From NCBI GenBank assembly GCA_010405405.1, contig MU004234.1, positions 2,709,988 to 2,773,987 on the forward strand: 64,000 nucleotides of DNA, read 5' to 3'. Below are positions 2,711 to 27,040 of the stretch, in pieces (positions within the stretch are counted from its first letter, which is position 1; the number at the start of each line of letters is the position of its first letter). Source of the DNA: Microthyrium microscopicum (taxonomy: Eukaryota; Ascomycota; Dothideomycetes; Microthyriales; Microthyriaceae). The position numbers and the translations under genes are program-made. Below the pieces are notes generated by a model. That model ran no database searches and was not told the DNA's origin. It saw only the letters and a program-made list of their open reading frames with translations.

Positions 2711-3873
2711 CGCCGCTCGTCACAATCCTTAGGCTCAAGTAGGAATCAAAGATGTTTCTCCTCTGAAAAGCATGACCTGCGCAAGATTATTGGTCCTGAG
2801 CTGCTCTTATAGAACACAAATCTTGGGTGTCCTCATTTCTTGTTCTATATGCATGGAGCGAATTCTCCTTTTGACTATGACTCAAGACGACAACAACCAC
2901 GACAAAAAGCTGGATTTATAAAGCACTGTCACCAATTATTTGACTGATTGCTACTGCGAAGCGCATGGGTGCAGTCATGAGCAAGAGCCAGGTGATTTTC
3001 GCGGGAAGATGTGTCATATTTGAAGAAGGTATGATCACAGGAAGGTATTTGGTTGCTTTGATGGCGTTGCAAAGCAGGCCCTATATATAAGTAGATACCT
3101 GTCATAGCGGGCGATGGAAGTAGAAAAAGCAACAGCCTGATACATTTAAGAAAACCTGGTATATCGAGAAGATAGAAGCGGTCTGTAGCCTTCGATGTTG
3201 TCAACACATGAGACGGAGGTAATCTCTAGTCGATATATCTCCTCCTCGGTCTAATCGACTGTACTTGTGGCTGGTATTTCCTAAAAGTGTACTGCGCCAT
3301 CATTTTCTCTATTTCCCTCCCCCACAAATACGGTAGTCTGGAAGATTTAGCCTCATGGATTATACCGCATACACTCTCACGAACTTCATTCTATGGAGGT
3401 AATACTTAGAGAGCTCATTGTTCTTCGCAATGAGAGACTGTGAATAAATGGGAGAGTCCGCGAACAATACTCGACAGAAATGCTCGAATCTGCGATACAC
3501 TCCTCTGTTTCCCATCAAAACTTAGAGATCTGCATTCTTTTATTAAGTCATTCCCATTTGATGAGCTCAAAAATGCTATACTCCTTCTGGTTTGGCGTTC
3601 CAAAATGTCTACCTTTGGTGAATTGAACTTCTGCGCACAACGTCGCATTATCATTCACGACGCCAAGAGCCTAACATCATTCACCGAACCCATTTCGCTG
3701 ACTTGGCGATGGATATCTATGAGGTATCAACTGCAGACTCCTTATCTTCGCTTTTCGTGACATTCTATTCATCCTTCTCTGTCATCAGCTCTATCCCATC
3801 CTTTATCTCCACCTTCTTATACGATTCAATTCCCGCATCAACTTCGCCAGCGATAACCTACAATTTCTCCATA
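2711..3873. other. intergenic, upstream of the first CCCH-RBR gene
   Basis: Several short frames on both strands overlap each other and show no recognisable content. The frame of the downstream gene is open back to 3703, but the paralogue shows that translation starts at 3874. Confidence 0.45.
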
Positions 3874-6751
3874 ATGGTTGTCTGTAAGTTCTTCCGTAGA
3901 GGATTTTGCTTTCGAGGCGAAAACTGCCGCTACAAGCACGAAATTGACACCCTGAACACTGCCGGACCAGCGACCAGTGGAATCGCAACTCATTTAGAGA
4001 GCCTCGATAGGTATGTCTTTATGCTCCTTGTTCCTCATCTCTTTGTTTATACTGCGCCTTTTGTATCTCTCCCACAAAACTATATTGTACGCTCCTTGGC
4101 GCAAACTAATTGAACCCCACAGAACCGACAAAGCAAACATCCCTTGCCGGTTCTTTGTCCGAGGAAACTGTAATCGTGGAGATAGATGTCTCTTCAGACA
4201 TAGTCTGAGCCTTGATAATGCGCCTGTTCCGCAAAACTCCATACCCAATGAACGAACTCGCACTCATTGCCGGCGCTTTCCCCCGAGTGGATGCGCAGAT
4301 GGCGATGATTGCTCATCCATACACCAAGAAAACAATCTAGCGTGTCTTGGAGCGCAGCTCAAGGTTAGTCTCCTGCTGCTTAATTTTTATGAAAACAATT
4401 ATGCTAAACTCCTCGTGCACAGAATCATGACCGTGACAATTTCAGGCGCATCATTGCTGGCGCATTGGTTAAATTTGCAGACGCTGGCGGAGTAGAAGAT
4501 ATATCGCTGCCATCCGACTAAATCTTGATTCGTTTGTCACCTCTTCCAATCGATTCTACTTGTTCAACAGTTATCGCACTGTTAAAGGGAATTGACATTG
4601 TGCTTCCAGATGCTTTGATTGAAATTTCTCAGGAGCGCAACACTCTCATCACCCAAGCCAAGATATATACAAAAGATTCCAGTCTAGCCAGCACTCTTCA
4701 GGTCACCGATGGTATCCCACGTGAGCACGCCATTTCGGGTATGGCTCTCCGTTTCACGAAATTGCCCGTATATACTCTACCTGGAATGCGACTTAAGGGA
4801 ATTGACAGTCGGAAGATTCAAATTTCATGGCGCAGCTCAACACGCACTGTTTGGCTAAGCTTCAAGCTTGAGTCGCAGGCAGTGCGTGTCTCTAAAAGAT
4901 TCCAAGACGAAGTATATGACATAAAAGGATCGACGGTGAACGCAACTACAGGAGCCGAAGTGCTTAATCCTCACAAGCGCCCCAAATTGACCGTGGAATT
5001 GACCAATGTGCCAAATGACGCAGATCAATCTAGCATTAACGCTGCTATTTCAGAGGCAAACGACAAACCGAGTTACATTTCACTCGCTCGGCTCACCTAC
5101 GATGCCACCTTCGAAGAGGTGGTATCGCTACTCGGTTTCAGACTCGCAAATTTCGGCGACGTTGTTGCCCTTGACAGTCTTGCAGCGCCATTGTCCAAGT
5201 ATGCAAAGGTTAGAGCAACATTCAAGAGCAGTGCAGAAGCCTCTCTGGCAGCAGCCGCCTTGAACACTGAGCGTCAAAATTTTCTGGGCGGTGGCAAGCT
5301 CTCAGTCAAGATCGTGCATACTCTAAAAGCAAAAATACTCACTGCCACGTTTGACGTTCTCCGCAACCAACTGGAGTTTCTGGCATTCAGATTCTTCTTG
5401 TGGAATAAAGAGACCGCGCTCCACTTTCATCGCAACACTGATTTCTATCAACGACTTACCGCAATTCGCATTGAGGCTGCCAGTGCTAAAGGAGTCACTG
5501 AGGTCAATATCGCTTTGCAAAAGATTCTCGGCGGAACGATTGCAAGAGATGCAGATAATTCTTTGCTGTGGCTTCCTCTATCGGACCAAAACGATTGGGC
5601 ACTGCAAAAGGTTCGAAAGCTACAGAGCGACTTGCAAGTTAAGATTGTCCGCGATAACCGAAAGAAGCAACTTCACATATTGGGTCCACCAGAACAAATA
5701 GATGCTGCAGTTGCAGCACTGACGCGTATCATCAACGAAGAACGGTCTGAGCTGGGCAAAGCTACTATATCCAACATTAAGACATCCTCAAGCTCAGTGC
5801 AATCAAGCAAAAATGGAAACGAGGACTGCGTTATTTGTTGGTCTGGAGCTGAGGACCCAGTCACAACTTCTTGCGGGCATATATATTGCGAGGAATGCTT
5901 AGAAAATCTTTGCATGGAAGGGGATTTGGGTGACGCTTACACTGTAATCTGTCTGGGTGACTCAGGACAGTGTCAGAAGCCACTCGAACTAGAAGAACTT
6001 CACTCGATTCTACCATCAGTGGTGTTCAACGCCATGCTAGAGCATGCCTTCGACTCGAAGGTTCGGAAGAATCCAGACAGCTTTCATTACTGTCCCACAC
6101 CAGACTGTGGCTTCGTATATCGGTCCACATCAACTGCTCATACTCATTGGTTGTAACAAGTGTCTTCAGTACATTTGCACGAGCTGCCATGATTCACATC
6201 CCAACAACTCATGTGCTGAGTTCCAATATATCAAGTCGGGGAGCCAGCAAGCTTTCGAGGAGTACAAGAAGGCCAACAATATGAAAGAGTGCCCGCGCTG
6301 TACTCTGACAATGGAGAAAATTGATGGATGCAACCATATGTCCTGCCCATCATGTGGTGCTCACGTTTGTTGGGTCTGCTTGGATCATTTCGAAGCTGCC
6401 ACAGAGTGCTACGATCATCTCATTGAGGTTCATGGACATATTGGCCTGGTGGATCATCCAGCCGAGGAGGTCATGCCTGACGAAGACTTTGCGCCAGACC
6501 AGATACCTGATGAGGAGCTTTTCTTGAATTTCAATCTGGCTGGACGACATGCTGCTGGGGAGGATCTGGATATTCTTCTTGCACAGTGGAACCTTACAGA
6601 TCTGCTTGCCACTGTAACCTTTGCTGCTCTCGGAATGACTGAGGAGGACATCACACTTTTGCGTGCCCTAGCGGCAAATCAGGCTGCCTTACAAGATGAT
6701 GGCCTCGTCAACGACGAGGAAGCAGGAATGGATGCATATCAGCCTCAATAG
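3874..6751 (+). pseudogene. CCCH zinc finger + RBR (RING-IBR-RING) E3 ligase-like gene, disrupted
   Basis: This is a paralogue of the gene at 7901. Exons begin at 3874, 4123 and 4423, with introns 4011-4122 (GTATGT..ACTAAT..CAG) and 4364-4422 (GTTAGT..GCTAAAC..CAG). Three CCCH fingers follow each other, each C-x7-C-x5-C-x3-H. RNA-binding-like and KH-like stretches come next, then RING1 (from Cys codon 5826), an IBR and a RING2/Rcat whose catalytic-type Cys in D-G-C-N-H-M is codon 6329-6331. Two lesions stand out against the paralogue. One is an in-frame TAA at 4519-4521, where the paralogue has a Tyr codon in an otherwise colinear D-[Y]-x6-LPIDST alignment. The other is a frame change between the IBR Cys codons at 6106 and 6152. 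No GT..AG pair between 6106 and 6152 would restore the frame and keep the Cys ligands. Sequencing error cannot be excluded, but two lesions favour a recent pseudogene. Confidence 0.75.
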
Positions 6752-7900
6752 AGCTCCTCTTATAGTGCTATCGTGCGTCTTCGGCTACTTCTCTGCGCGT
6801 TGGTCGGCAGTATTCCAAGGGTTCAGAGGCTATCAACGATACAAAGAAAGCGACACGCTTGCCACTACCGCCACTAAACAAGAAATGCTGTGTTTCTCAT
6901 CCTACTTGTAAGGGCATTAATATCGAATGCATTCTCTGAGGATTGGAGCTCTGGATAATACAAGAAGGCAGATAATGGATATTGTCCTGATACAGTAGCA
7001 AGTCGCTCGGTTTACTCCACCTTTGAGTTAAAATGCCCAAGATACCTAGGTACCTGTTAGATCAGGAAGCAGGACGATAGAGAATAAGATTAAAGATACA
7101 ACAATCAAATGAGCTGACCTCATCTGATCTTTTGCGGCCCAGTAAACAACTCTAGCTGGAAGTCACTCTTGGCGCGGTGCCAATGACGGACGGCGCAGAC
7201 CAGGTTCCGTCCGGTACGCGGGCGAATACTGGACGGGGAGTGCCCGCGACTGGGTTAGGGGAAGACTATCTTTTATGAATAAAATGACGGCTGTGATTTT
7301 GGGGCGGGCGAACATTTCGGGCAAGATTAGGATGTGCTGCAGGAGAATCGTTTGGGGTTGAAGGACCATAAGGCTGAGAAATGCGGCTTTGACGACTAGT
7401 ATATCTTGGCAGCCTCACCAGTACAGTGGAGCGATCAGAATAAAGTAAGTTCGGTATCAAAGGGGGTCAGAAAGCGGATGCGTTCTTACGAATTGCTTTA
7501 TTGGTTGCCCATTCAGTAGATCGATAAGGAACATATTTTCATGGTGGAGTGGTGGCTTGAGAGTGAGAAACGCTCTTCGAGACCCGCCATCACTGCAGGG
7601 TTTTGAATGCCTCTAGCCGAAATGTTATAGGTGAATGCCGACAAATGAGAGCAAAGCTACCTCTACAAATGTTGGAGCTGTCAAGCCGGTGATTGAGGTG
7701 GTGCTGTGCTAACCTCTACAAGCTTGTGCTCCAGGGGCTGCGCTGCTTTTCGGTTTCTTCCTCTGTTAAATCTCGCTTCACCAGCGCTCGCGGTGTACCT
7801 TCAGTCTTTATCCCCTCAAAGCTTTACCCATCCTCCAGCTTTGTCGTCATCATTCTAGTTCTTATCGTTTATTCACGGTCAGAGTGTTGAAACAATTGAT
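6752..7900. other. intergenic between the two CCCH-RBR paralogues
   Basis: A GC-richer patch at about 7160-7280 and a few short frames, none with recognisable content. The sequence just before 7901 is pyrimidine-rich, as fungal promoters often are. Confidence 0.45.
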
Positions 7901-10227
7901 ATGACCGTTTGCAAATTCTTCAAGGCAGGTGAATGCAACAAGGTGAGATTTCCCCGTCAATTCCAATCTCTCAACAGAATTTTGGGCTCCATCCCATAGA
8001 ATATGACGCTGATCAAGGATATGGTTACCGCTAGACGCAATTGCTTTGATTATAACGTTGTACTAACTAATTCCAGGGTCGCGACTGTCCATATCAACAT
8101 CCAGAGCCAGGTCCAGTTACACGAGTCATAGATGGGGCTCTAGTGCAGTTTGCAAGTTCTGGCTCTGTTGAAGATGTCTCTTTCGCGTCTGATTACACTT
8201 CTTTTCATATATCGAAGCTTCCGATCGACTCGACACCAGACACTATTGTGGAACTACTTCAATGCCTCGATTTATTGGTGAAGAAGTCTCATGTTCGAAT
8301 ATTCAAAGATCAAGACACAATGGCTTTGCATGCAAACATCACCACAAAAGACCGTAGTTTGGCTTCGCTTCTTAAGGAAATCAACCACATTGAGGGCTTG
8401 AGGACGCTATCGGATGCAGCTTTGGAAGTCAAGGAAGTAACTGTTTATAGTGTACCAGGAGGACAACTTCGGCGTATTGATAGCCGCAAAGTTCAGTGCT
8501 CGTGGCAACGTCCAACTCGAGAAGTAATCTTGATATTTGGTCAACAGCAGATAGCAGACCGAGTGCGCCAAAAGTTTCAGGACAACGTCTATACAATACG
8601 AAGCGTCAAGGTATCCGTCGCTGAAGAGCCTCAAGAGATGCTAGCAAATCATCGCGAGCTGTACACAACACTTCGGCTACAGAATGTTCCCGTTGAAGCA
8701 GATCAAGACGTTATCAAGGCTTCTATTCGTCACGTAGGAGATCAGCCGGACAACATCACACTGTTGGAGCCTTCTTACCGCAACAATTTCACAAAGGTCG
8801 TGGCAGCGCTTTCTGAGAAGTTCTCAGCTCTGGGTAATATTCGAGATGCCCATCCTCTTATGCAACTTCACGCACAACGATTCCAGATGCGAGTAACCTA
8901 CTGCGACGAACAACATGCTACAGTTGCAGCAAGACTCCTACAAGGTCAGATGCAGGAAGTCCTCGGTGGCGAGCCCATTGAAGTGAATGTCCTCCATTCA
9001 ACGAAGTCCAAGGTTTGCACTGAAATTTTCGATGTTCTTACTACCCGGTTGGCACAGCTGAAGTCAGACCTCAAAGATATGGGCCTTGACGTCAATATAT
9101 ATCACTATCGCAATGCCGGCTATTTGAAGCGATTCACGACGCTGAAGATTGAGGGCGCTTCTATCAAAGCAGTCGCCTATACTGATGAACAGCTCCAAAA
9201 AATCATGCAAGGAGAGATTATGTGTGATCAAGATGGCAAAGCACTCTGGTGTCCCTCTTTGGAATACGAAAGCGGCACATTACGGCGAATTCAAGACCTT
9301 CAGACCCCGCTTGGCGTTAAGGTTATTCGCAAGAAGTATTCGAAACATCTTCAGATCTTCGGTCCGCTCGCCAATTGCAGCGAAGCATTACTTCTAGTGA
9401 AGACCATCGTGGAGGATGAATACCCTGAGAATAGTAGATCCGCTAAAATAGATGCGGATACTGAACTGGGCGAGAAGCCTGCAGAAAACGAGTGTCAAAC
9501 CCAAAGTTGTGCAGTGTGCTGGACCGAGGCGGACACTCCAATAACTACATCTTGTGGCCATGTGTATTGTTTGGATTGTCTCGAAAACATGTGCAAGGCT
9601 GGAGACAGCGGCACTGACTTTGCAATTACTTGTCAAGGTGCAAGCGGCAATTGCGATCGACCTCTCCAATTGCCTGAGCTTCAATCGCTGTTGCAACCTT
9701 CAGTACTGGAAGATGTACTCAGGATATCCTTTCTGTCCTACATCAGCAAACATTCGAATGATTTCCACCATTGTCCCATAGCAGATTGCTCTGGGATCTA
9801 TCGAGTAGCTTCTAAGCAGCTTATGCGTCGATGTGGAATTTGCTTGGAAGAACATTGCGCGATGTGCCATCATCAGCACCCAGACATATCTTGTGCGCAG
9901 TTCCGGGCCAATAATGCCGAAGACAAACAATTCGAAGAATTGAAAACTCAGATGGGTCTGCAAGATTGCCCAAACTGCTACATGACCATTGAGAAGTCTG
10001 ATGGGTGCAATCACATTACCTGCAAATGCGGGGCACATATATGCTGGGCTTGCTTGAAGCATTTCGAAACTTCAGGCGAGTGTTATGGCCATCTAAGAAA
10101 GGTACACGGAGGGTTTGGAATAGCGGCGGGCAACCACGAAGCCTATCATGGAGATGATGAAGAAGAAGAAGACGACGATGACTGGGTGTTCGGACTTTTC
10201 GACGATGACGAGTTGGCGGCCATGTAG
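7901..10227 (+). CDS. CCCH zinc finger + RBR (RING-IBR-RING) E3 ubiquitin ligase-like protein
   Basis: Two exons (7901-7942, 8077-10227) give 730 residues. The 134-base intron has a GTGAGA donor, an ACTAAC branch site and a CAG acceptor, and it splits the single CCCH finger (C4-x7-C12-x5-C18-x3-H22). The middle holds two stretches that read like RRM folds (around LPIDST, and around L-x-L-x-N-V-P) and a KH-like segment (V-x-K-V-I-R-K ... L-x-I-F-G-P). RING1 begins at C492, the IBR at about C580 and RING2 at C645. The Rcat Cys is C658 in D-G-C-N-H-I-T-C. In RBR ligases this Cys takes ubiquitin from E2 as a thioester before transfer, so it is probably an active HECT/RING hybrid ligase. The C-terminus is a run of Asp/Glu. 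RNA-binding domains joined to an RBR suggest ubiquitination on RNA or ribosomes; that is inference. Confidence 0.87.
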
Positions 10228-10806: not shown

Positions 10807-11068
10807 TTACTTTGCCCATTGGGCCCACTGCAGCGTATACGAGCCGTCAGGATCCTGTCCTCCTTCAAGAGGAGGCTGAACTTGCAGACTCCATGCCAAG
10901 ACGTTGACACATTTTTTTCAAGGACCAAAAGTCTAATTCTGTTCATGAATTGAATTTTGTTGATCACAGGCCCAGCCTAATGTAGAGCTTGTGGCAATTA
11001 GCTGCGATGTTGTCTGGATCTTCGGGGTGTGTGCAATCCCGAAAGACTCGTCCACTATTCAAACACAT
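10807..11068 (-). pseudogene. array member A, decayed Cys/His protein
   Basis: The N-terminal half (ATG at 11066-11068) reads M-C ... V-F-R-D-C-T-H-P-E-D ... N-C, matching the family, and closes at a TGA near 10973. In another frame, further on, a segment ending at TAA 10807-10809 reads C-V-N-V-L-A-W then Q-P-P-L-E-G-G-Q-D-P and G-S-Y-T-L-Q-W. This matches the C-terminal half of the neighbour at 11364. I found no GT..AG intron of reasonable size joining the two halves, so this looks like a broken copy, although an unusual intron cannot be ruled out. Confidence 0.55.
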
Positions 11069-11363
11069 CCTTATAAGGATAAGACCAGACGAGGCTGTTT
11101 GACATGTTAAGAAATTCAAAGAATAAACGAAGGGCTGGGTAATACAGGTAGTTTGGACATTACAGTCGGGGATGATGGAGACGTTGCATTTATAGAACAT
11201 AGTTCAAAGTGATAGGAAAGCAGTTCTATCTAGAAGTCGCCTGTTGTGGCTTGAAAGCATTGGCTCCCATCAACAATTCAAGATAGTACTCTAGTGACTG
11301 AAAGAGCATGTATTTCCTGTCAATTGGACTGTTACCGCCCTTAATGTCACTTGGTATGGGAGC

Positions 11364-11558
11364 TCAACGCGGCCACAGTCTCCACTTCAACGAATATGAG
11401 CCGTTGAAATTAGGATCCAGTCCTCCCTCAATAGGGGGTCCAACGCCCATATTCCACCGGTAAACGCCAATACATTTTGGGCGGCATTGTAATGCGATAT
11501 CCAGTTCATCTTCTGGATGTCCGCAAGCCTGGAAGACTTTCCCATTATTCTTACACAT
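11364..11558 (-). CDS. array member B, small Cys/His protein
   Basis: A 64-residue frame begins M-C-K-N-N-G-K-V-F-Q-A-C-G-H-P-E, with C2, C12, H14 and E16 in the family register, followed by C25-x3-C29. After that it diverges. In place of the W-x2-G-x-C-x2-C end it has G-P-P-I-E-G-G-L-D-P ... G-S-Y-S-L-K-W, shared only with member A. A and B therefore form a subgroup lacking the last Cys pair. Soluble, no signal peptide. Function unknown. The size is small, but homology to seven neighbours makes it more than a chance frame. Confidence 0.55.
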   Translation of the reverse strand: MCKNNGKVFQACGHPEDELDIALQCRPKCIGVYRWNMGVGPPIEGGLDPNFNGSYSLKWRLWPR

Positions 11559-11933
11559 TTACTGTATTGTTAACCTTTAAAACGTTCCCTGCCTTCCTTA
11601 TAATCAACTGAGTAATGATAAAAGAATCGGTACGGAAAATGAAGCGACCTAGTAAGGGAGGGCAGACAAATTGGTATTTATAAATATGGATGGCTATGAG
11701 TACAACTAAGATTGTTAAACAATGATTACCTATAGTAAGTAGTTAATCTAACATTTCAGAGAGTATAGATGACTTTTGAACATAACTGGACAAATTTGCA
11801 AGTAAAGTGAGTGAGCTTTCACTAGGATGTACCACCCTCTCCATGAGCAATAGGCCGAAATGTCTGATTTTAAATGTTTAGCTGTTTTTACAAACACTGA
11901 ACAACCAGTTATCATCAGCCAGTCCGAAAATCT

Positions 11934-12143
11934 TTACAAAAGAAACAATACATTATCCGGGTACGTCAGATTCCACGTTGCTAAACAGTTTCCACAATAT
12001 CCTGGAATCCAGTTCTGATCAGTCAGTGGTGTAACCTTTGCACAGATCTCTCCTGAAGCCCAGTAGTCGGAGCAGTAATAGGCAATATCATGAGCATTCT
12101 CTGGGTGGCAACAGCGGTAAACTCGTCCGCGATGCTTACACTT
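11934..12143 (-). pseudogene. array member C, Cys/His protein without a start codon
   Basis: An open frame reads K-C-K ... G-R-V-Y-R-C-C-H-P-E-N ... C ... G-E-I-C-A-K-V-T-P ... W-I-P-G-Y-C-G-N-C and ends at TAA 11934-11936. From the fourth Cys on, spacing is identical to the intact members, with seven fewer residues in the N-terminal loop. The codon where relatives have ATG is AAG (12141-12143), and the frame meets a stop upstream before any ATG. Either the start was lost or an upstream exon supplies it. Apart from this it looks well kept. Confidence 0.6.
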
Positions 12144-12792
12144 TTTGATATGGATGAAGTGAAGGTAGACAAAACGCTAATGCGATCTGCTGTATTCAGA
12201 CAGTGTGTATGTGAATATGATTGAGACGTAGATTCAGATGGCTGCCATCTGACTATTTGTAGTTTGGCAATCTGGTGATATTCACTTTCGTGGATATCTA
12301 TATTAACTAATCACTTTTTACTTAAACAGCTTTGAAGAACAGGAAGTTGCTGTGACGGTAGGCAAAGAATCACCCTAAATACTACTAAACAAAAAATGTT
12401 CTATTGTTACATTCCCTGGCCAGTTCTGCCTCAGAGGCCATAGCAAATTTCCTCTCCAAGGTAAGAACGGTTGATGAGGGTCTTTTGACCATTTTTGCGA
12501 ATAACATCCTATCTTGGGTTATACTAGCAGAAGTGGCGTTCTCCCGTCAGCTATGGTGGCTGCCATCGTGCATTATAACAAGATGGTACTGTGTTTCCCA
12601 GCATATTCGAGGCAATCACAGTTCAGTGGGCCATTGATAGTCAAGCTGATTAACATGCACCTTTGCTTAGCTTCCCGAGCCGGCACCTGAGATGTGGTTA
12701 AGTCATGAGTTGGCAGGATAGGTGGTCTCATTAGAAATGAGACTGTTATGGCTTATGATAAGGCTGATCAGAAGGAAGAGTTACATTCGCTA
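12144..12792. other. spacer within the array, no member found
   Basis: This is the longest spacer of the array. I translated it looking for the C-x-H-P-E and W-x2-G-x-C-x2-C signatures on the minus strand and found neither. A 77-codon plus-strand frame at 12404-12637 has no recognisable content. Confidence 0.45.
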
Positions 12793-13038
12793 TCAAAGAA
12801 AATAATCTCCAGTCTCATCAGCCGGATCTACTCCAGCGTTCCAGCCCTGTACCTGAATACAATGCGGACAATACCCCTGAATCCAAGCATTCCAGTCTGC
12901 GGGGTGGACTTGCGCACAAACATGACCAATTTGCTTTGCTAATGGACATATCGTACAAAGCTTCTCATCAGCTAGTTCTTGTGGATAACTTTCCCAGTGG
13001 CGACAGCCACGCCACACTCTGCTGTAAACTAAGCACAT
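12793..13038 (-). CDS. array member D, small Cys/His protein
   Basis: 81 residues. C2, C12, H14, E16, C28, C31, C41, P46, W52, G55, C57 and C60 fit the family grid; P-H sits inside the final C-P-H-C. A tail of about 20 residues rich in Asp and Gly follows. An AT-rich TATA-like stretch lies about 115-130 bases upstream on the minus strand. Not secreted by appearance. The Cys/His set would suit two zinc ions, for example as a small treble-clef or ribbon fold, but that is inference from spacing alone. Confidence 0.65.
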   Translation of the reverse strand: MCLVYSRVWRGCRHWESYPQELADEKLCTICPLAKQIGHVCAQVHPADWNAWIQGYCPHCIQVQGWNAGVDPADETGDYFL

Positions 13039-13433
13039 ATCATAGGTAGAGCCTAGTATTCACCAGAGATCGGTAGGTTGTAGGTGTACTTCAGCAATTG
13101 CTTGATATGTTGGATTTATGAAGGATAAAGAGAATGGCGTCTATCATTTAGATTCCTTTAATTATATACTACGATGTAGATAATCGATGATGGATAAATG
13201 CAATAGTGAGAGCCCCCATTACTGACTAAAAGTAACGTATGATGTCTTCACATATTGGAAATGAACTAGTAACGCAAGATTTTGGACTCAGATATATAAC
13301 AAGAGGGTACAAAATAAGACCCGAAGGTTACAGTGAGGGTCTAGGCATTGGATACACGAAAGCCATGAAGAAAAAGGAAACCCAGAAGAGCGGTTTACAT
13401 TATTGGAAGCGCCAAAATTCGTCCCTATATTAT

Positions 13434-13652
13434 CTAAAGTAAAGACAGGAAGCTATTGGACTGCATCAGAACACAATATGGGCATATCCCCTCAAGCCAA
13501 TGATCGTTTCCCACTGGTATAACTTTTGAACATGGACGACCAGCTCGCCAGGCCTGCGAACAAACATCGTGACAGTGTATGCCCTCTAATTTGCGCGGAT
13601 GTCCTTCCGGGTGGCTGCAGCCACGATACACCTTTGCCCAGACGGTACACAT
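13434..13652 (-). CDS. array member E, small Cys/His protein
   Basis: 72 residues. Together with D it defines the family spacing: C2, C12-x-H14-x-E16, C27-x3-C31, C41-S-K-V-I-P46, W52-L-E-G55-x-C57-P-Y-C60. A TATAAATA-like box lies about 115-130 bases upstream of the ATG on the minus strand. No signal peptide or membrane segment. This copy keeps every position shared by the group, so it is the best representative. Confidence 0.68.
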   Translation of the reverse strand: MCTVWAKVYRGCSHPEGHPRKLEGIHCHDVCSQAWRAGRPCSKVIPVGNDHWLEGICPYCVLMQSNSFLSLL

Positions 13653-14032
13653 CTTGGCCGGGACTATCGTCTAGTGGGTTGATGTTATAAAGCTCAAATT
13701 ACCAAATCGGTGTAATATTGGTTGGATTTCAGACAAGATGTGAGACAATTGGTTCCTACCGCCTGAATATTTATACGCCAGTATCTACATCACTGCATAT
13801 ATGAATGACAGGGCCGCCATCTGAACAACTGAATGGCTCGGAGACACAACTATCAACGAAAAGCCTGAGCATATCCTTGCATATCCTTGCATATCATCAC
13901 TATAACTACCCAAAGTCGTTCCCACTCTCAGAAGCCCAGGACCCATTTATCTAATCCAGTGGAAAGGTCTAAACTGATCAGACTACTCACTACATACTCT
14001 AGAGTGTTTTCCAACACTTCCATTCTTATCTA

Positions 14033-14263
14033 TCATTCTGCTTGTACAACATCATTGTTTTTCCAGAAATCTCTCAAAATACAACAGCGGGGACAAAGCT
14101 CGTCAAGCCACCGGTGCTCATGCCATGATTCCGCTTTCATATAATACTCGCCCGTTTCGAGCGCTGTTGAACAGGGCGTGTGGATGGATCGAGGGTATCA
14201 AGGGTAGGAAAGTTGAATATGGTGTTTACACTCCCCATGGACTACATTCCAAACTTTATACAT
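14033..14263 (-). pseudogene. array member H, Cys/His protein with an in-frame stop
   Basis: 77 codons from ATG 14261-14263 to TGA 14033-14035. It is colinear with member F: both start M-Y, both have R-S-I-H-T-P-C at residues 25-31, and both have W52-L-D and C57-x2-C60. A TGA at 14198-14200 interrupts it at codon 22, and the Cys at position 41 is a Tyr. H and F are each other's closest relatives and next-door neighbours, so H is a degenerating tandem duplicate. Confidence 0.65.
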
Positions 14264-14395
14264 ACTGCGTGGTAGGTATGGACGGACAAGTTTGTGTTGA
14301 ATAAGTGTAAATTGGGTTGATATTGAGAATGAGGACTACGAATCAGATTGTGAGAACTGTACTATATACACCACACAGTCTCCAAATTTCTACCA

Positions 14396-14650
14396 CTAGC
14401 CTATATTACTACCCAACGGCGGAAAGTCATCTTCATTCCAAGTGCCATCCTTCTTAGCATTCTCTTCATCGCAGCCTGCACAGAGCCCATCGAGCCATAT
14501 GCTTTCATTGTATGGCTGCACTTTTAGACAATGCCGTCTCCTTTGAGAAGCTATATGGCAAGGTGTGTGGATACTGCGGACAAAGCCAGGCAAGAAAAGT
14601 AGGCCATCATATTGACAGTCACTATGGATTAGGTTTGAAACTATATACAT
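14396..14650 (-). CDS. array member F, divergent Cys/His protein
   Basis: 84 residues in the family register: C12, C31, C41-L-K-V-x-P46, W52-L-D-G55-L-C57-A-G-C60. It lacks C2 (Tyr), H14 (Tyr) and the Cys at 27, so only one of the presumed metal sites could be complete. The acidic tail ends E-D-D-F-P-P-L-G-S. It may be diverging in function or decaying; the frame itself is intact. Confidence 0.58.
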   Translation of the reverse strand: MYIVSNLIHSDCQYDGLLFLPGFVRSIHTPCHIASQRRRHCLKVQPYNESIWLDGLCAGCDEENAKKDGTWNEDDFPPLGSNIG

Positions 14651-14849
14651 GTTGATTTGTTGGGAAGATTGGTGCTAGATACGAACTGAGTTGGGTTGTT
14701 CTTAAACGGATGAAATATTTGTGGGGTTGCTATCTAGGCATAAATGGTAATGTAATGTGAGGGTAGTAGTGTTTGTAGTTGATGGTTTAAATTAACTTCA
14801 TCAAAGAATAACTAACCGTTTGCTGGATCACCACCATCAGTGAATCTGC

Positions 14850-15107
14850 CTAGACAGCTCTCCTAAGATATTCACTCTCAGTAGTGGCAATGAACTTCTT
14901 GATACCAAGACACCAATCACATTTCCCATCCAGCCACTTGCCCTCTCCATATACACTTGGTTCCTCCGGTTCAGCTCTCGCACAATGCCTCGCCGTCTTT
15001 TTCGCGCTCTCACAGAGTTTCCAGCAAAGTTCGTGGGCTGGTATTTCAGGATATAGTTCCGGGTGACCGCAGTCGCGATGGATGGGTAGGATGCTAGTAC
15101 ACATCAA
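14850..15107 (-). CDS. array member G, small Cys/His protein
   Basis: 85 residues from the first of two adjacent Met codons; the second (15102-15104) is the one that aligns with the family start. From that Met, C2, C12, H14, E16, C27, C31, C41 and P46 fall exactly on the grid, followed by a five-residue insert and W-L-D-G-K-C-D-W-C. A TATAAG box lies at 15148-15153, about 40 bases upstream. It is the first gene of the array in transcriptional order, with no further member detected upstream. Confidence 0.65.
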   Translation of the reverse strand: MMCTSILPIHRDCGHPELYPEIPAHELCWKLCESAKKTARHCARAEPEEPSVYGEGKWLDGKCDWCLGIKKFIATTESEYLRRAV

Positions 15108-17389: not shown

Positions 17390-19018
17390 CTAGTGTAACA
17401 TTGTCCCACTAGGAAGACTGTAAACCTGACTATCCAATTCGTCTCCGCAAACGACGACAAACGGATAGGTGTTGTATAGACATTTCTTCGCTTTCGTGGC
17501 GTGGTTGACCAGATTGCCAGACTTGTAGTATGCCCAGAGTTGTTTCTTGTCCTCAGGATTACAACCTACCATGCTCACACCTCCATCTGCTTTAAGACAA
17601 AGCGAGGGGGCTGACAGTGGACTTATGAGACCTTGAGAAGAAACCCCCCAAACCTGAGAATCTGTACCCGCGCAGTCCTGAAAAAGGATGCTTGCTGCAA
17701 TATGAGTCATACATTTACGAGTAGCTGAGTTGAATATCATGCCCGTTGGAGTCGCAGTTGGGACCTTGAAGAATCGATACATGGCGGTGGCATGGCCAGG
17801 AAGCTCGATGGCAATGACGGTTGTGACAGTTTGATTGGAGCCTGTCCAGAGATCTTTGACGGTGTATTTGCCATCTCTTGTCAATCCAACCCTTTCGACG
17901 TTTATACTAGTCGAGGCGGTTTTGTTGCTGCGATTGAGCACTGTGAGCAATCGATCTCCACCTGCTAAGTTCTTGGTCAAAACATCCCAGTTCCCATCTT
18001 GGCTAACCAGAGTTGCTTGTAGTGCCAGAGGATCTTGATCGATAGCGATGATATCTTTGTTAGTCAGATAGGTAATTTCTTTAGGTGAAAGATCCTGGAC
18101 ATTTGCGCTGATGATCAAAGGGGCAGAAAAGGCGGACCATAAAGCGAATTGCGATTTCTTCTCTTCCAGTGTCAACCATGGCCAATCAGCAATGATAAAA
18201 TCGGGATCGTTGTAGAATCCAGGCTGCTGATATCTAGCCAAAAGGACGTTATGCGCGTAATTGTTCATGATGCTTTTCCAATATTCGGTAGGCTCGTAGA
18301 GACCAAAAACATCAATATCATTTGAATGTCTTGCAAGTTCTCCGTAGAGAGGCGCCCATGCCATCACTCTGTACCAATCCGATTCATTGTTTTGCTTTGG
18401 AAAATCTGAATCACCAGAGAAGTATGCTGGCGCTGATTCCGAGAAGACCATAGGTTTGGACAAGTTTGACAGGACATCATGCCAACGACCATAGATAACT
18501 TGATAAGTTTGCTGTAAAGTTTTTCCTTTATACGGATCGACATTGCATCCATCAAGTTTAAGATAGTTTATTCCCCAGCTGGAGAATGTCTGCGCGTCGG
18601 TGGCTTCGTAGCCGAGTGAGCCTGGGTACCCTCCGCAGGTTTTGTTCCCAGCATCTTCATAGATACCAAAGTGAAATCCTTTCGACTTGACATAATTTAC
18701 AAGCCATGGAATGCCTTGCGGGAAGAGAGTGGTATTCCATTGCAACAGGCCTTGATCGCTTCGGGAGGTTTGCATCCAGCAATCATCTAGATTCAGACGA
18801 TTATAGCCAGCTGCGAGTAGGCCTTTGCTGACCATCGCATCCGCGGTAGTTGTAAATAGAGATTCATTCAGTCCACATTGAAAGCGTGCCCAATTATTAA
18901 ATCCCATTGGTGGGGTTGGAGAAACGAGGGGGTTGGTGATAGATCCATGAACTAGGCGAAGAGCTGTAGTAACAAGGAAGGCCAGGAAAAATGCCAAAGA
19001 GTGATTGATGATGGCCAT
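17390..19018 (-). CDS. secreted alpha-galactosidase, GH27 with C-terminal ricin-B-like (CBM13) domain
   Basis: A single exon of 542 residues. Signal peptide at about residues 1-25. The GH27 barrel starts at P-T-P-P-M-G-F-N-N-W (34-43) and includes N-L-D-D-C-W (76-81). The nucleophile is D156 in L-K-L-D-G-C, and the acid/base is D234 in R-H-S-N-D-I (R-x-S-x-D). A beta-sandwich with L-P-G-H-A-T-A-M follows. The last 120 residues form a trefoil-like lectin domain with Q-x-W repeats (S-Q-V-W, K-Q-L-W), which probably binds galactosides. It hydrolyses terminal alpha-1,6-galactose from galactomannan, raffinose or similar plant polymers outside the cell. All catalytic residues are present, so I expect an active enzyme. 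Confidence 0.95.
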   Translation of the reverse strand: MAIINHSLAFFLAFLVTTALRLVHGSITNPLVSPTPPMGFNNWARFQCGLNESLFTTTADAMVSKGLLAAGYNRLNLDDCWMQTSRSDQGLLQWNTTLFPQGIPWLVNYVKSKGFHFGIYEDAGNKTCGGYPGSLGYEATDAQTFSSWGINYLKLDGCNVDPYKGKTLQQTYQVIYGRWHDVLSNLSKPMVFSESAPAYFSGDSDFPKQNNESDWYRVMAWAPLYGELARHSNDIDVFGLYEPTEYWKSIMNNYAHNVLLARYQQPGFYNDPDFIIADWPWLTLEEKKSQFALWSAFSAPLIISANVQDLSPKEITYLTNKDIIAIDQDPLALQATLVSQDGNWDVLTKNLAGGDRLLTVLNRSNKTASTSINVERVGLTRDGKYTVKDLWTGSNQTVTTVIAIELPGHATAMYRFFKVPTATPTGMIFNSATRKCMTHIAASILFQDCAGTDSQVWGVSSQGLISPLSAPSLCLKADGGVSMVGCNPEDKKQLWAYYKSGNLVNHATKAKKCLYNTYPFVVVCGDELDSQVYSLPSGTMLH

Positions 19019-19880
19019 TGCATTTCATAGACCTACGGGACTGGTCAAAGGGCTGTCAAGCTTGAAACTCCCGTGGTGTTGAAGTTGACGACCAGTTGTC
19101 TTCTGCTACACAGGTAGTTGCCAGTTGGATCTTGAATTCTCTGACTCTAATCAATATTTAGAGTGGGTCAAAGCTTGCTATAATGAGTTGTGAGTAACAT
19201 TATTATGTTACCCTAGTATTATTTAAGCGGAAATAGGCTGGATCCTTTCTACCGATGATGGTCATTTTCTTATCCAATAAGATTCTTCTGGATATAGTAC
19301 TTTCGTGTATACGCGAAAAATGTCCGTCGATTATGCAAAACCATTTTATGTGGATGTATTCATACTAATAAATTTCAATTGTGCGTACGAAAAGAACAGT
19401 GTGCGCTCAGATCAAATGCCAAATACAGTACTTACTGACCCTTGAGTTCTGTTCAGCCGGATTGATAAAGGTGGCCGAAAAGAACTAATTCGTGTTGAAA
19501 AATTGTTGTGTAACGCTTTACTTCTTCAATATCGGTCGGATGTAGGCTTCATGTCAATCGGGACCTATGAAAACAGTATTGCAGCGAATTAAGGCCGATT
19601 TGCCTGATACCGCCAGTTTGAACTTGGTGTGAGCGATTGGTCAAGTTCTACTGCCATAACATATCTTGATCAATAGTTGAAGATAAACAGACTGTCAAAC
19701 GATGGTTAAAAATGTCATATATACCGAACATTGATCTTTGTTGCTCAAGTTCACAGGTATGAGTTTCAAGAATCAACCGTTTTCAATCCAAATCTTTACA
19801 TCCACATCATAAATCAAAAGTCACTATCCCTGCCGTTTCAAAACTGCCCGGAGTCCCCTAGGGGCCAGCAATACTAGAAA
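19019..19880. other. promoter-side intergenic of the alpha-galactosidase gene
   Basis: 860 bases without a gene, between two divergent loci. AT-rich, with no clear repeat. Confidence 0.45.
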
Positions 19881-21058: not shown

Positions 21059-22217
21059 CTCTCTATACTAATACGACGCTGAATGGCACCAACCATAGTA
21101 AAAAGGAAGTTAACAGTACATAGATCAGAGTGGTGAAAAAAAAATTGCTAATAATATTGGAACACGAGAGATGACAAACTATATCGGCATATAATCAACA
21201 AAGTGTTCGAGCGTAGACAACCGAAACATCATACGTTCTAATCAAACCAGCAGCATTTGCCTGGTACCCTTCACAAGAATTGTTCCTAAGTGCAGTTGCA
21301 GTTGCACAAGCAAAAGCTAAAATCATTCCGGCATTGACAGCACTCAAAGAGGGTTTCTCAAATCGCATTCTGGAGACGCCAGTTAAACGACGAGTTGAAC
21401 AAAACAATTAGTAAGATGAATGAGAACCTGGCTTTGAAGACACTTGCCCAGGAACCAATTTCGATAGACTCTGGGGGTGTATCTATTTACATTCATGTTT
21501 ACAGTACTACCAAAGTGTCTATTATCATAAAGAGACGGGCGTTATTGAAGTAAGCTCAACAGAGCCTGATCGACGGCCATCACATACACCTCAATGTATG
21601 TTTTCTAGTTATCCTTTCTCTCGTTATTTCTTAATTGGGGTTGATCAAATTTGGCAGCTCAAAGGGGGTGATGCTGGAGGGGGATAATGAGAGCCGCATG
21701 GTTGGGGCAGCCAAACAGCAGAAGACTTCCCAATTGGGCAGATCACAAGTCTATCACGGCCCGCCATGACGGTTTTTTGGTGGTTGACGCCACTTTCTTG
21801 ATGGGATCTGCATAATTCCCGATGGTGCATCAAACCTTCAGGTTGAATCAGTCCTCGAGAGTCGAGAAGGTTGTTACTGAGCTCAGTAATGAATTCAATC
21901 TCTTCGCGGCAGTTGATTTTTTGGTTGTTCATGGCAAATTAAGTATGTGTTCCTCGTTTAGATGGGCATTTACTGGTTAAGCCAAAGAAATTGAAATAGG
22001 CTTAGTGTTATCTTGGTAGCCTCCATCGCCCCTCAATAATAATACGATACGGTGCTCTACTCAACACCGTTGGCTACCACCGTTGTGCGTGGAAAATTCT
22101 TGCGTTTTGTCTCTGGCCAACCATCTCTTGTGGTTCTATCAACTCCGTCAACTTTCCCATCAATTGTTTCTGCATGTTTCTATACCCATTCTCAGCCTCG
22201 ATTTGTCAGCAAGAAGG
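21059..22217. other. intergenic, upstream of the ATRR-type gene
   Basis: Two minus-strand frames (21195-21407, 21645-21932) lack family features. The frame of the downstream gene is open back to 22083 but has no ATG before 22218. Confidence 0.45.
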
Positions 22218-25200
22218 ATGCCTATTATTGATACCACCAAAGACTTGAATTGTCTCTTCAATCTTCAAGTTCAGGCTTCGCCTGATGCCATTGCTCTTGA
22301 GGACGAGACCACAATATTGACATATGCTCAATTGGATGTCAAGGTCACCTCACTCGCTACACATCTGCGTACATTTGGAGTTGGACGAGACTCTTTAGTT
22401 GGAGTGCTTTTGTCTCGCAGCGCTGATTATGTGATTGCTTGTCTTGCCGCTCTCCGAGCTGGCGGCGCCTTTCTTGTCCTAGAGCTTGCCTACCCTCCCA
22501 GCTTGTTGGCCGATGTCATTGATGACGCTAAACCAGCGGTTATCGTAACTCATACTGCCCATGCTAGCCAGATCACTTCTACCACACCCCTGATTGTTCT
22601 CCAGGATCATGTCAGTGGATTAGATTGGTTCCCTCCCAACAATGAGCCTCACAATTCATCAGCTCTGCCGGCTGATGATGACTTGGACCGGCTTGCCTTT
22701 GCTTCATATTCATCTGGTACAACTGGCCGACCCAAAGGAATTGCGAATCCTCATCGAGCGGCTGTATTGTCGTATGATTTGAGATTTGGAGTCAACGATC
22801 TCGGTCCTGGCGACCGCGTCGCTTGTAACGTGTTTTTTGTTTGGGAAATTTTGCGACCTCTACTTAGAGGAGCAACAGTAGTTGTCGTACCTGACGAGAC
22901 TAGCTATGACACAATTGCTTTGGTAGAGCTATTGTCTTCTCGACGTGTAACGGAAACTCTTATGACTCCAACATTGCTTGCTGCTGTTCTCGCCAGACAT
23001 CCTGACATTGGCAACCTTCTTCCAGATCTACGAACTTTGTGGTTTAATGGCGAAGTAGTCACTACAGATCTTGTTCGCCGCGCTATGAAGTCTCTTCCAA
23101 AAGCTCGTCTCCTCAATTGCTACAGCGCAAGTGAGACTCATGAAATTGCCTGCGGAGATATTCGAGATATGCTTGATACATCGGTACCCTATTGTCCGGT
23201 TGGTCCACCTTTGGACCCGAAACATGCATACATATTGAGTGATGAGGGTAAAAGAGTTGCGGATGGAGTCAGTGGGGAGTTGTTTGTCGGAGGGCCTCTT
23301 TTGGCTCGCGGATACATCAATCTACCGGAAACTACTGCAGCAGCTTTCTTGCCTGATCCTTTCGACACCTCACCTGGAGCTCGCATGTATAGGACTGGAG
23401 ATACTGGGCGAATATTACCGACTGGAATCCTAGAGATTACTGGACGTGTAGGGTCTATGATAAAGATTCGAGGATATTCTGTTGTTCCTGGTAAAATCGA
23501 GCGTGCAATTGTAGAGCACTTTGCTGTCAGTAATTGCGTCGTGATTGCTGTTGGTGATGGGCTCGATCGTCAATTGGTAGCTTATATCGTTCACGACAAG
23601 CAAGAACAAGATGAGCGTACTCAACTCGAGATCGATGACACAGGATTTAGTCCAATCGCACGTGGAGTGTTAACATCGTCGTTGGCACAATACATGATAC
23701 CAGCATTTTGGGTACCAATGGACGAGCTTCCCACCCACGAAGTTTCCGGAAAGGTTGATTTAAATCGGCTGCCATCTCCAACATCGACCAAATCACGAAG
23801 CGCAACAATGCAGAACGGCAAAGGACTACAACGAGATACGAATGTCAACACAAAGACCATTGCGGAACTTTGGGCAGCTTCTTTGAGTCTTTCAGCTAAC
23901 TCCATCATCTCAAAAACGGACCCCAACTTCTTTGACCTCGGAGGCCATAGTTTATTGTTGGCAAATCTTGCTAGTAGAATGACTACGTATTTCGGCTTTT
24001 CAGTGCCTCTAGCTCGTCTAGCAGGTATGCCGACTCTTGAGGGACATCTGCAGGTTGTGATATCTGCTCGCGATGGCCACACATCCTCAGTACAAGCTAA
24101 TCTGCCTGCAATTTTGAAAGCAGACTCGGTTCTTCCAGCAGAGTTCAAGCCTGTGCAAGCGGCATTTTGTCCTATTCGCAAAGCAGAGACAATTTTCCTG
24201 ACAGGTGCAACTGGATTTCTTGGTGGAGTGCTTCTTCAAGAGCTTTTGGAAGCAACTCAAGCTCGTATTATCTGCCTTGTACGCTTTACTGACCCGTCTG
24301 AGGGTGGTAGTGCCCCAGGAATGGCTAGAATTCGTCGAAACCTCTTGGACCTTGGCCTCTGGAAAGACTGGATGCCAAATCGCATCGAGATTCTTGGTGG
24401 GAACTTATCTCTGAAACGAATGGGGCTTTCCGCCACAGACTTTGAGAAGATATCTAAGCGTATTCATGTGATTATACATGCTGGGGCTACCGTCAATCTC
24501 GTTTATCCATATGCTGCACTGAAAGCCGCAAATGTTGACGGTACCAAGGAAATTCTACGACTTGCTTGCGCCGGCGGTTCTACATTACAATATGTATCGA
24601 CAAACAGCGTCTTGCCACCATCAACGGAAGGCTGGTCCGAGGATACAGCAATTGATATTGCCACTGTCTCAGACAAACTCATCGATGGTTACAGTCAGAC
24701 CAAATGGGTAGCCGAAGAACTTATCCATGAAGCTGCTCGCCGTGGATTACCCGTAGGTATTCTAAGACCAGGCACAATAAGTGGTCATAGTAGCTCCGGT
24801 ACGACCAACACATATGATTTACTCAACGCAATTATTGTAGAGTCTCTTCATATTGGCCATCATCCAGATATTCCCGGCTGGAAAGCAGAAATGACACCAG
24901 TTGATTTTGTATGCAAGGCCATTGTCACACTTGCAGATCAACAACAATCAAGCCAGCACATATATCACCTCAGCGAGCCGCATCCCATTGAGATGGCAGC
25001 TCTCTTTGCTATTTTAAATGGCATGGGCTATGGAACTAAACCATTAGCTTGGGATGAGTGGATTGACTTATGGAATGATTCGCGAGGCTCTATCAAAGGT
25101 GGCGAAGGAGCATTTACCGTTGATATTATTCGCGGTGGTGTCCCAACAGCGGAATTTTTGAGGTGCATTACTCTGCTCAACGATACCGGTACAATAGCGG

Positions 25201-26081
25201 CTCTTGGGACTCTTCAGCGTCCGGGAGTTGATGAAGCACTTCTTGAAACATATACTCGTCATTGGTACGCACGCGGTTGGCTACCTCGGCCTCCACCTCC
25301 TCGCCATGGTTTCTGTGAAGGTACGAAACTGACCACACGAGGGCCACTTTATGGACGTGTAGCGGTTGTCACTGGCGCATCTTCTGGTATTGGTGCCGCC
25401 GTGGCTACCGCTCTGGCCAAAGAAGGGGTACATGTTGCTCTTGCTTCGCGGAGGGTGGAAGTATTGAACGATTTGAAGAAAAGACTTCTAGGGCATGGTA
25501 ACAAAATCGTAGCCCATGGAACAGACGTTACAGATCCAAAACAGGTGAACTCTCTTATGGAAACCACCACTGAACAACTTGGTCCTATTGATATCTTGGT
25601 ATCTTGTGCTGGTGTCATGTACTACACTATGATGGCCAATGTGAAGAGCTGGGAATGGAATCAGACAGTTGACGTGAATTGCAAAGGCTTGCTTCATTGT
25701 TTGGCATCGACTGTTCCTTCCATGCTATCTCGAGGCTCTGGTCATATTGTTGCCATATCGTCTGATGCTGGTCGCAAGGTCTTTCCAGGACTTGGTGTTT
25801 ACTCTGCAAGCAAGTTTTTCGTGGAAGGAACTCTCCAGGCACTTCGTTTAGAAACAGCTGGAACTGGGCTCAGAGTTACCAGTGTTCAGCCAGGAAATAC
25901 TGCCACTGATTTGCTTTCCATGTCTACCGACGAAGAGGCGATCAAGAAATATGCTCAACCGACTGGTGCCAAAGTTCTGGACCCGGAAGATGTGGCATCG
26001 TCGATAATATATGCTCTTCAACAGCCTCAACACGTTGCCATCAACGAAGTGCTCATAGAGCCAAGGGATGAGCCAATTTAA
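22218..26081 (+). CDS. NRPS-like carboxylic acid reductase, A-T-R-SDR (ATRR/NPS10 type)
   Basis: A single exon of 1287 residues from the first ATG in frame. Domain order: adenylation (A3 motif S-Y-S-S-G-T-T-G-R-P-K-G); carrier protein (F-D-L-G-G-H-S, phosphopantetheine Ser578); thioester reductase (T-G-A-T-G-F-L-G from about 662, Y825-x3-K829); and a separate C-terminal short-chain dehydrogenase (T-G-A-S-S-G-I-G from about 1052, Y1195-x3-K1199). The same four-domain layout and similar size are known from Aspergillus ATRR, which reduces glycine betaine through the aldehyde to choline, and from the NPS10 group. In the A domain the usual F-D-x-S core is F-F-V-W-E, so the Asp that holds an alpha-amino group is missing, as expected if the substrate has no free amine. 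Betaine reduction is therefore a good inference, not proven. All catalytic residues are intact. Confidence 0.9.
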   Translation: MPIIDTTKDLNCLFNLQVQASPDAIALEDETTILTYAQLDVKVTSLATHLRTFGVGRDSLVGVLLSRSADYVIACLAALRAGGAFLVLELAYPPSLLADVIDDAKPAVIVTHTAHASQITSTTPLIVLQDHVSGLDWFPPNNEPHNSSALPADDDLDRLAFASYSSGTTGRPKGIANPHRAAVLSYDLRFGVNDLGPGDRVACNVFFVWEILRPLLRGATVVVVPDETSYDTIALVELLSSRRVTETLMTPTLLAAVLARHPDIGNLLPDLRTLWFNGEVVTTDLVRRAMKSLPKARLLNCYSASETHEIACGDIRDMLDTSVPYCPVGPPLDPKHAYILSDEGKRVADGVSGELFVGGPLLARGYINLPETTAAAFLPDPFDTSPGARMYRTGDTGRILPTGILEITGRVGSMIKIRGYSVVPGKIERAIVEHFAVSNCVVIAVGDGLDRQLVAYIVHDKQEQDERTQLEIDDTGFSPIARGVLTSSLAQYMIPAFWVPMDELPTHEVSGKVDLNRLPSPTSTKSRSATMQNGKGLQRDTNVNTKTIAELWAASLSLSANSIISKTDPNFFDLGGHSLLLANLASRMTTYFGFSVPLARLAGMPTLEGHLQVVISARDGHTSSVQANLPAILKADSVLPAEFKPVQAAFCPIRKAETIFLTGATGFLGGVLLQELLEATQARIICLVRFTDPSEGGSAPGMARIRRNLLDLGLWKDWMPNRIEILGGNLSLKRMGLSATDFEKISKRIHVIIHAGATVNLVYPYAALKAANVDGTKEILRLACAGGSTLQYVSTNSVLPPSTEGWSEDTAIDIATVSDKLIDGYSQTKWVAEELIHEAARRGLPVGILRPGTISGHSSSGTTNTYDLLNAIIVESLHIGHHPDIPGWKAEMTPVDFVCKAIVTLADQQQSSQHIYHLSEPHPIEMAALFAILNGMGYGTKPLAWDEWIDLWNDSRGSIKGGEGAFTVDIIRGGVPTAEFLRCITLLNDTGTIAALGTLQRPGVDEALLETYTRHWYARGWLPRPPPPRHGFCEGTKLTTRGPLYGRVAVVTGASSGIGAAVATALAKEGVHVALASRRVEVLNDLKKRLLGHGNKIVAHGTDVTDPKQVNSLMETTTEQLGPIDILVSCAGVMYYTMMANVKSWEWNQTVDVNCKGLLHCLASTVPSMLSRGSGHIVAISSDAGRKVFPGLGVYSASKFFVEGTLQALRLETAGTGLRVTSVQPGNTATDLLSMSTDEEAIKKYAQPTGAKVLDPEDVASSIIYALQQPQHVAINEVLIEPRDEPI

Positions 26082-26888: not shown

Positions 26889-27040
26889 TTTGGCGAAAGA
26901 AAGTGGAATAGAAAATTGATACTGGAACATTGATTATTTACGAGAACTGGAGCAACATCGACAGAGATATATGTCCCCATCCTCGATTTGGCTCCGCTCA
27001 TAGTGAATGTTCGGTGCATGAACTTGCTGGTTTCCTGTTT

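Follow-up and report, generated by a model that had tools for sequence, protein, structure and literature searches.

A stretch of 64,000 nucleotides from the ascomycete Microthyrium microscopicum (GenBank assembly GCA_010405405.1, contig MU004234.1, forward-strand positions 2,709,988 to 2,773,987; hereafter the window) carries an array of small Cys/His genes that, judged from sequence, belong to a genome-wide family built on a grid of seven near-invariant ligands of metal-binding type. The explanation we favour, tentatively and at a little less than an even chance, is that they constitute an unnamed family whose members are small stand-alone zinc modules and bind partner proteins. The original prediction placed eight minus-strand frames with one common pattern in this array. 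When 7992 stop-to-stop frames from 263 kb of stretches including the window are searched with a profile built from 29 members, eight related copies come out, all on the minus strand and spanning 10967-15104, but the common pattern does not extend to all eight: four are open full-length frames, four are relics, and the complete grid (M-C...C-x-H-x-E plus the later cysteines) is found in the three copies at 15104, 13652 and 13038. Scored over the whole frame, the copies lie between 14.7 and 67.3 bits (59.8 or above for the open frames, all in the profile; 29.0 or below for the relics, all outside it; Table 1), and the best reversed-frame control reaches 10.8 bits. C12, C31, C41, P46, W52, G55, C57 and C60 are, as predicted, invariant and at the same residue numbers in the frames at 12793, 13434 and 14396; C-x3-C and [KQR]-V-x-P, proposed as parts of the family pattern, proved to be features of local copies.

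Across the family the grid reads M-C-x(8,9)-C-x-H-xn-C-xn-C-xn-C-x2-C over 50-86 residues, with cysteine as residue 2 and with columns at a single C2, C12-x-H14, a single C31, a single C41 and C57-x2-C60. Each of these seven Cys/His columns is kept in 27-29 of the 29 rows, the two rows without C60 carrying a cysteine one residue further on, and the metal-type ligands of the original prediction are borne out. Members have mostly 6-7 cysteines. An eighth column is absent (the best of the remaining columns has a Cys, His, Asp or Glu in 15 of the 29 rows), and the only other majority residues after Met1 are Gly13, Ala34 and Gly55. The script patterns used to collect members required an opening Met with Cys, Tyr, Phe or Trp as the next residue, and the Met column was removed from the profile to lessen circularity. 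This Met-less profile gives 38 matches at E 0.05, of which 32 start at the first cysteine; Met stands directly before it in 31 of the 32 (28 of these 31 being training rows and three, C9:271034, 272889 and 278948, lying outside them), the lone exception is the relic at 12176, and another in-frame Met lies upstream in three of the 32.

Distribution, relationships and age of the arrays

In the contig numbering used here (C1, C3, C5, C9 and C12 are contigs of the fungus's own genome, and the window is C5:2709988-2773987), the family occupies five arrays and single sites in a genome of 36.9 Mb and 20 contigs. Thirty-five frames reach 17 bits or more by their best stretch in the stretches read, 29 that built the profile and six that did not; counted by site, the plus strand has 16, 3 and 3 of them and the minus strand 6 (C9), 6 (window) and 1, each array keeping to one strand. 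Homologues beyond the array, which the original prediction looked for, do exist: a search with one window member reaches a copy at a distance of 2.28 Mb (C5:443808, E 5e-7), a match beyond chance. Other own-genome searches with single members reached C9:306964 (E 0.0019), C9:342843 (0.0028), C12:117113 (0.031), C1:3012751 (0.125) and C3:1135796 (0.14), and the weak matches were firmed by reading and further searches (C1 from C3 at 3e-7; C9 within C9), single-protein homology across arrays reaching E 6e-11. A match at C1:1584618 (E 0.158), inside an 892-residue frame, was dropped because its size is unlike the family. Just ahead of the C3 array, a 320-residue frame (L017:153-1115) appears SMI1/KNR4 (SUKH)-like by eye.

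Homology between arrays was tested with profiles that left the target array out, against reversed controls, and much of each target array is still recovered. Among the matches of the C9-only profile (best reversed 0.07) are C5:445323 (3.2e-6), C5:443754 (4.8e-4), all four open window copies (4.1e-4 for 13652; 0.002, 0.012 and 0.037 for the rest) and two C3 copies (0.015 and 0.073). The C5-only profile (best reversed 0.84) finds C1 at 1e-5, C3 at 2.5e-4 and twice at 0.0036, and C9 at 0.008, 0.014 and 0.067, and the C3/C1 profile (best reversed 0.32) finds C5:444804 at 2.3e-5, C5:445323 at 5.3e-5 and window copies at 0.0017-0.011.

In a tree of 30 rows, with several long branches and 4 of 27 inner branches well supported, the arrays are interleaved, with 13 label changes overall against a shuffled mean of 16.8. 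The C9a array clusters (4 changes against 9.8; none of 500 shuffles as low), C9b clusters little (5 against 5.7; 128 of 500 as low), C3 and C5b show no clustering, and the four window rows hardly cluster (3 changes against 3.9; 43 of 500 as low). Label changes so near the shuffled mean leave the 'locally expanding' family of the original prediction unsupported for the window: its rows form no single tree group, the family is genome-wide, and DNA likeness within the array is confined to one short stretch (10825-10875 against 11382-11438, 73.7% over 57 bases). This stretch lies behind two half copies and may represent another kind of small gene or a tail that was exchanged. The predicted fast evolution and the broken copies nearby do fit what is seen, the first window member being 25-32% identical to the others and relics lying within the array itself. 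With no single tree group and one short alike stretch only, the window array looks old and half decayed; it lacks the strong signature of the repeat-induced point mutation (RIP) type seen in the AT-rich blocks of the window (10.6-15.3 kb: TpA/ApT 0.83, (CpA+TpG)/(ApC+GpT) 1.28). Old birth-and-death is the best reading of how the family has been kept. A possible half copy at 11200 (M-F-Y-K-C) was left uncounted, the profile giving no match there, and a frame at 26535-26933 (minus strand, 133 residues, 16.1 bits) was set aside as a non-member: its middle alone matches, and by eye it has a signal-like start and several cysteines.

Table 1. Family copies in the window, family sites elsewhere in the genome, and other window features
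Feature	Position	Strand	Score or remark
Intact copy, 84 residues from ATG, all seven Cys/His	frame 14850..15104, profile copy 14853-15104	-	59.8 bits
Open copy, 84 residues, Tyr at residue 2, without His14	frame 14396..14650, profile copy 14399-14650	-	67.3 bits
Relic with in-frame stop, two recognisable pieces	14036..14263	-	22.7 + 12.0 bits
Intact copy, 72 residues, all seven Cys/His, TATA motif at -123	frame 13434..13652, profile copy 13437-13652	-	64.8 bits; AlphaFold model
Intact copy, 81 residues, all seven Cys/His, TATA motif at -130	frame 12793..13038, profile copy 12796-13038	-	62.1 bits
Relic, most of grid in open frame, no start Met ahead of first Cys	11937..12176	-	29.0 bits
Half copy, M-C...C-G-H-P-E retained, second half unrecognisable, TATA motif at -124	frame 11364..11558, profile copy 11367-11558	-	17.0 bits
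Half copy, M-C...C-T-H-P-E retained, second half lost	frame 10964..11068, profile copy 10967-11068	-	14.7 bits
Three family genes	C5:443.8-445.6 kb
Thirteen family frames plus weaker ones	C9:271.5-279.5 kb
Six family frames	C9:305.0-307.8 kb
Three family frames	C3:1135.8-1138.1 kb
Single copy	C1 (3012751)
Single copy, Met-Cys present, inside longer open frame with upstream ATG	C9:342.8 kb
Degenerate piece	C12:117 kb
Two duplicated E3-like genes, RING + IBR (RBR) domains	window 3622-6751, 8071-10227	+	compared frames 35% identical
Alpha-galactosidase (Melibiase_2) with C-terminal ricin-type lectin domain	window 17390-19024	-
Adenylation-carrier-reductase-SDR protein, like a non-ribosomal peptide synthetase (NRPS-like), open single frame	window 22020-26081	+
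AT-rich blocks, RIP-type signature	window 38.5-44 and 52-64 kb		GC 0.22 and 0.19

Evidence that the copies are genes

On sequence evidence the family copies are genes, because codons at the kept sites are mixed, TATA motifs are enriched ahead of them and nonsynonymous change (pN) is lower than synonymous change (pS). All seven Cys/His columns mix TGT with TGC or CAT with CAC (C12, for example, is 14 TGC and 15 TGT, and C57 is 6 TGC and 23 TGT). The motif TATA[AT]A[AT] lies 20-160 bases upstream in 19 of 31 copies, where Markov resampling gives a mean of 3.6 and a maximum of 8 in 500 resamples and 210 of 2000 random windows carry it; the three of five scanned window copies that have it are 13652, 13038 and 11558. 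The original prediction had named a dN/dS near 1 between members as evidence against the family, and in the comparison each of the 12 closest among 465 pairs has a pN lower than its pS, three of the 12 having saturated dS and one including a relic.

These comparisons also bear on the alternative that the copies are conflict genes, acting in incompatibility or against viruses or transposons, with variety itself as their function. Birth-and-death arrays, very unequal surfaces and broken copies would suit such genes. However, pN exceeds pS in none of the 12 most alike pairs, and no shared partner gene was noticed beside four other family sites, where frames were judged by eye; we consider a conflict role rather unlikely.

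A predicted metal-held fold and its possible roles

Seven near-invariant ligands and a compact predicted fold point to a metal-held domain, probably binuclear. AlphaFold, given 29 rows for the 13652 copy, predicts helices and strands with a mean local-distance score (pLDDT) of 86.7 and a template-modelling score (pTM) of 0.70, the first ten residues at 93 and C57-x2-C60 at the beginning of the last helix. Each copy, on the zinc-module explanation, would be read from one unbroken frame, usually behind a TATA motif of its own, and would encode a single compact domain of about 50-86 residues in which six cysteines and a histidine most likely bind two zinc ions that hold it together. Methionine aminopeptidases remove Met ahead of Cys, and normal processing would give a mature chain starting with Cys. 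A constant metal core with a freely varying surface would suit proteins that bind specific partners stoichiometrically within the cell, acting as free-standing adaptors or as inhibitors much like Anti-TRAP, and copies would be gained and lost in head-to-tail arrays. The family itself, its grid, the coding constraint, the enrichment of TATA motifs, the layout of the arrays and a predicted fold are results of the analysis; we infer the zinc, the zinc number, Met removal, the location in the cell, partner binding and function alike.

The varied charge and the small number of majority residues make a variable binding surface on a fixed core more probable than a catalytic site or a uniform surface for nucleic acids. 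The 31 members range in net charge from -17 to +10, the other 29 lying between -4 and +5. Nucleic-acid binding is a common role of small zinc folds, and the member at +10 would suit zinc fingers that act as small transcription or RNA regulators; with a charge range so wide, and no basic column among the majority columns, we regard such a role as unlikely for the family.

Metallothioneins are largely unstructured and full of C-x-C. Metal buffers of this kind would account for short, cysteine-rich, multi-copy genes with TATA motifs, but C-x-C occurs in 3 of 31 members, ligand spacing is regular and a helix/strand fold is predicted at the score given above, all of which make metal buffering very improbable. 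The intracellular location of the original prediction is plausible given Cys at residue 2, although C9:274826, and perhaps other members outside the window, starts with hydrophobic residues; by residue count, 7-10 of 15 positions are hydrophobic in the stretch of each member where such residues are densest. The copies could instead encode small cysteine-rich proteins of an effector-like or antifungal kind that are stabilised by disulfides and secreted by a route needing no classical signal, for which small size, the number of cysteines, fast evolution, arrays, broken copies, the RIP-marked AT-rich blocks of the window and the start of C9:274826 can all be cited. Against this stand the Met directly before C2 in 31 of 32 matches, where cleavage of a signal would lose the first ligand, and the retention of His14 and C-x2-C as well as the other cysteines, which fits metal better than disulfides; secretion is quite improbable on balance.

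A RING finger has C-x2-C, then C-x-H-x2-C-x2-C, then C-x2-C, with eight Cys/His residues and two zinc ions. The family resembles RING and IBR domains (PF00097, PF01485) in its mid-domain C-x-H and its final C-x2-C, C-G-H is typical of RING fingers, and the adjoining duplicated RBR genes (3622-10227), in which both Pfam models have matches, offer a source from which RING or IBR debris might come. The family, however, is without the first C-x2-C pair and has singly spaced ligands, the hhalign profile-profile probability is 0.2% against both RBR proteins, and RING/IBR models listed none of the 29 members at E 10, with filters removing most matches above 0.1; an origin as debris is scarcely credible.

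With seven side-chain ligands, no eighth column and Cys at residue 2, the free amine of the mature N-terminal cysteine suggests itself as an eighth ligand in a two-zinc module, an idea we treat as a long shot. The N-terminal cysteine would hold one zinc through thiolate and amine, and N-terminal acetylation, cysteine oxidation or Met retention would switch the second zinc site off; the count of seven would be explained equally by water, by a partner, or by a single zinc with structural cysteines. The TIMP metalloproteinase inhibitors are alike in having a mature N-terminal Cys whose amine chelates zinc and in inhibiting by binding, and differ in being secreted, disulfide-bonded and larger and in chelating the zinc of the target, an analogy for the N-terminal idea only. 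Anti-TRAP has the cysteine-rich fold of DnaJ type, built on two C-x2-C pairs, and is not known to contain C-x-H or to form a tandem family. Anti-TRAP (AT) of Bacillus subtilis is a small zinc protein that binds and blocks another regulator and whose free N-terminal amine matters, with ion pairs in the dodecamer; it is bacterial and forms a trimer via a C-terminal helix, unlike this fungal family, and the likeness of a stand-alone small zinc-type protein with a possibly relevant N-terminal amine is one of analogy only (PMC11255114).

Several observations weigh against partner-binding zinc modules kept in one-strand arrays. A second AlphaFold model, of a C9 copy with 25 rows, is weaker than the first (pLDDT 79.6, pTM 0.50) and has longer predicted strands. 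The links between C5 and C9 are partly weak, three of the four window copies lying at 0.002-0.037 with the C9-only profile and one C3 copy level with the reversed control. Outside the seven sites constraint is loose: in the closest pair dN is 0.36 against a dS of 0.63, and dS is saturated in several comparisons. With four of its eight copies broken, the window array may be dispensable. A divergent M-C...G-H-H...C...C...C-x2-C frame at C9:308.5 kb (308352, plus strand, 136 residues; 8.7 bits, below control) lies on the opposite strand to the adjoining array and, if a member, would break the one-strand rule.

Library searches, surroundings and significance

The absence of a named family stands: none of the 29 members passed a curated Pfam cut-off (nine families were touched by one member each, best E 0.009), and a relic frame gave E 0.0085 at 17.1 bits against a cut-off of 27. 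Solved structures in the Protein Data Bank (PDB) gave no significant or good match to the models, treble-clef and zinc-ribbon folds included, a miss that says little for folds so small, and two weak matches by sequence (best E 0.48). The best match in a viral structure library had E 3.9, none of five pattern matches in viral contigs was confirmed, and Rfam and tRNA scans of the window returned nothing. In a protein collection, one member met no candidate with three shared 5-residue words, and the 29-row alignment met 32 candidates, none at E 10 or better; both searches were bound to exact words, with 100 at most for all rows together, and are weak evidence of absence. The NRPS-like protein of the window, run as a control, reached E 1e-50 or better with 3093 of the 7980 proteins scored; among the 120 listed, matches with a named species were all fungi, the best after the window's own being 69% identical, and the collection includes fungal proteins, though apparently none from a close relative. 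Literature searched by title and abstract opening, mostly without subscription journals, gave no description of such a family. Uncharacterised Pezizomycotina proteins opening MC...CGH may belong to the same family, although the word-bound protein searches gave no relative; mainly owing to these proteins, the family is not called categorically new.

The window ends 716 bases from the end of contig C5, which is 2774703 bases long. Its AT-rich blocks carry strong RIP-type signatures, with TpA/ApT of 1.66 and 1.62 and (CpA+TpG)/(ApC+GpT) of 0.13 and 0.06, no TTAGGG pairs were found in the window, and 440 of its bases read N. CCCH zinc fingers occur in frames of the first E3-like gene (3622-6751). 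Among the relatives listed for the NRPS-like enzyme is a protein bearing the name glycine betaine reductase ATRR, and the enzyme's named relatives at 64-69% come from several classes of filamentous ascomycetes. The RIP-type signatures and these relatives together point to a member of the Pezizomycotina.

About 30 open copies of a tiny gene thus lie in one fungus with no Pfam family matched, and annotation may overlook such genes or drop them as too small. Should other filamentous ascomycetes have the family as well, a profile of it would give a name to many 'hypothetical' proteins together, and if the idea of an amine ligand is true, N-terminal processing would gate the fold throughout a family of small proteins.

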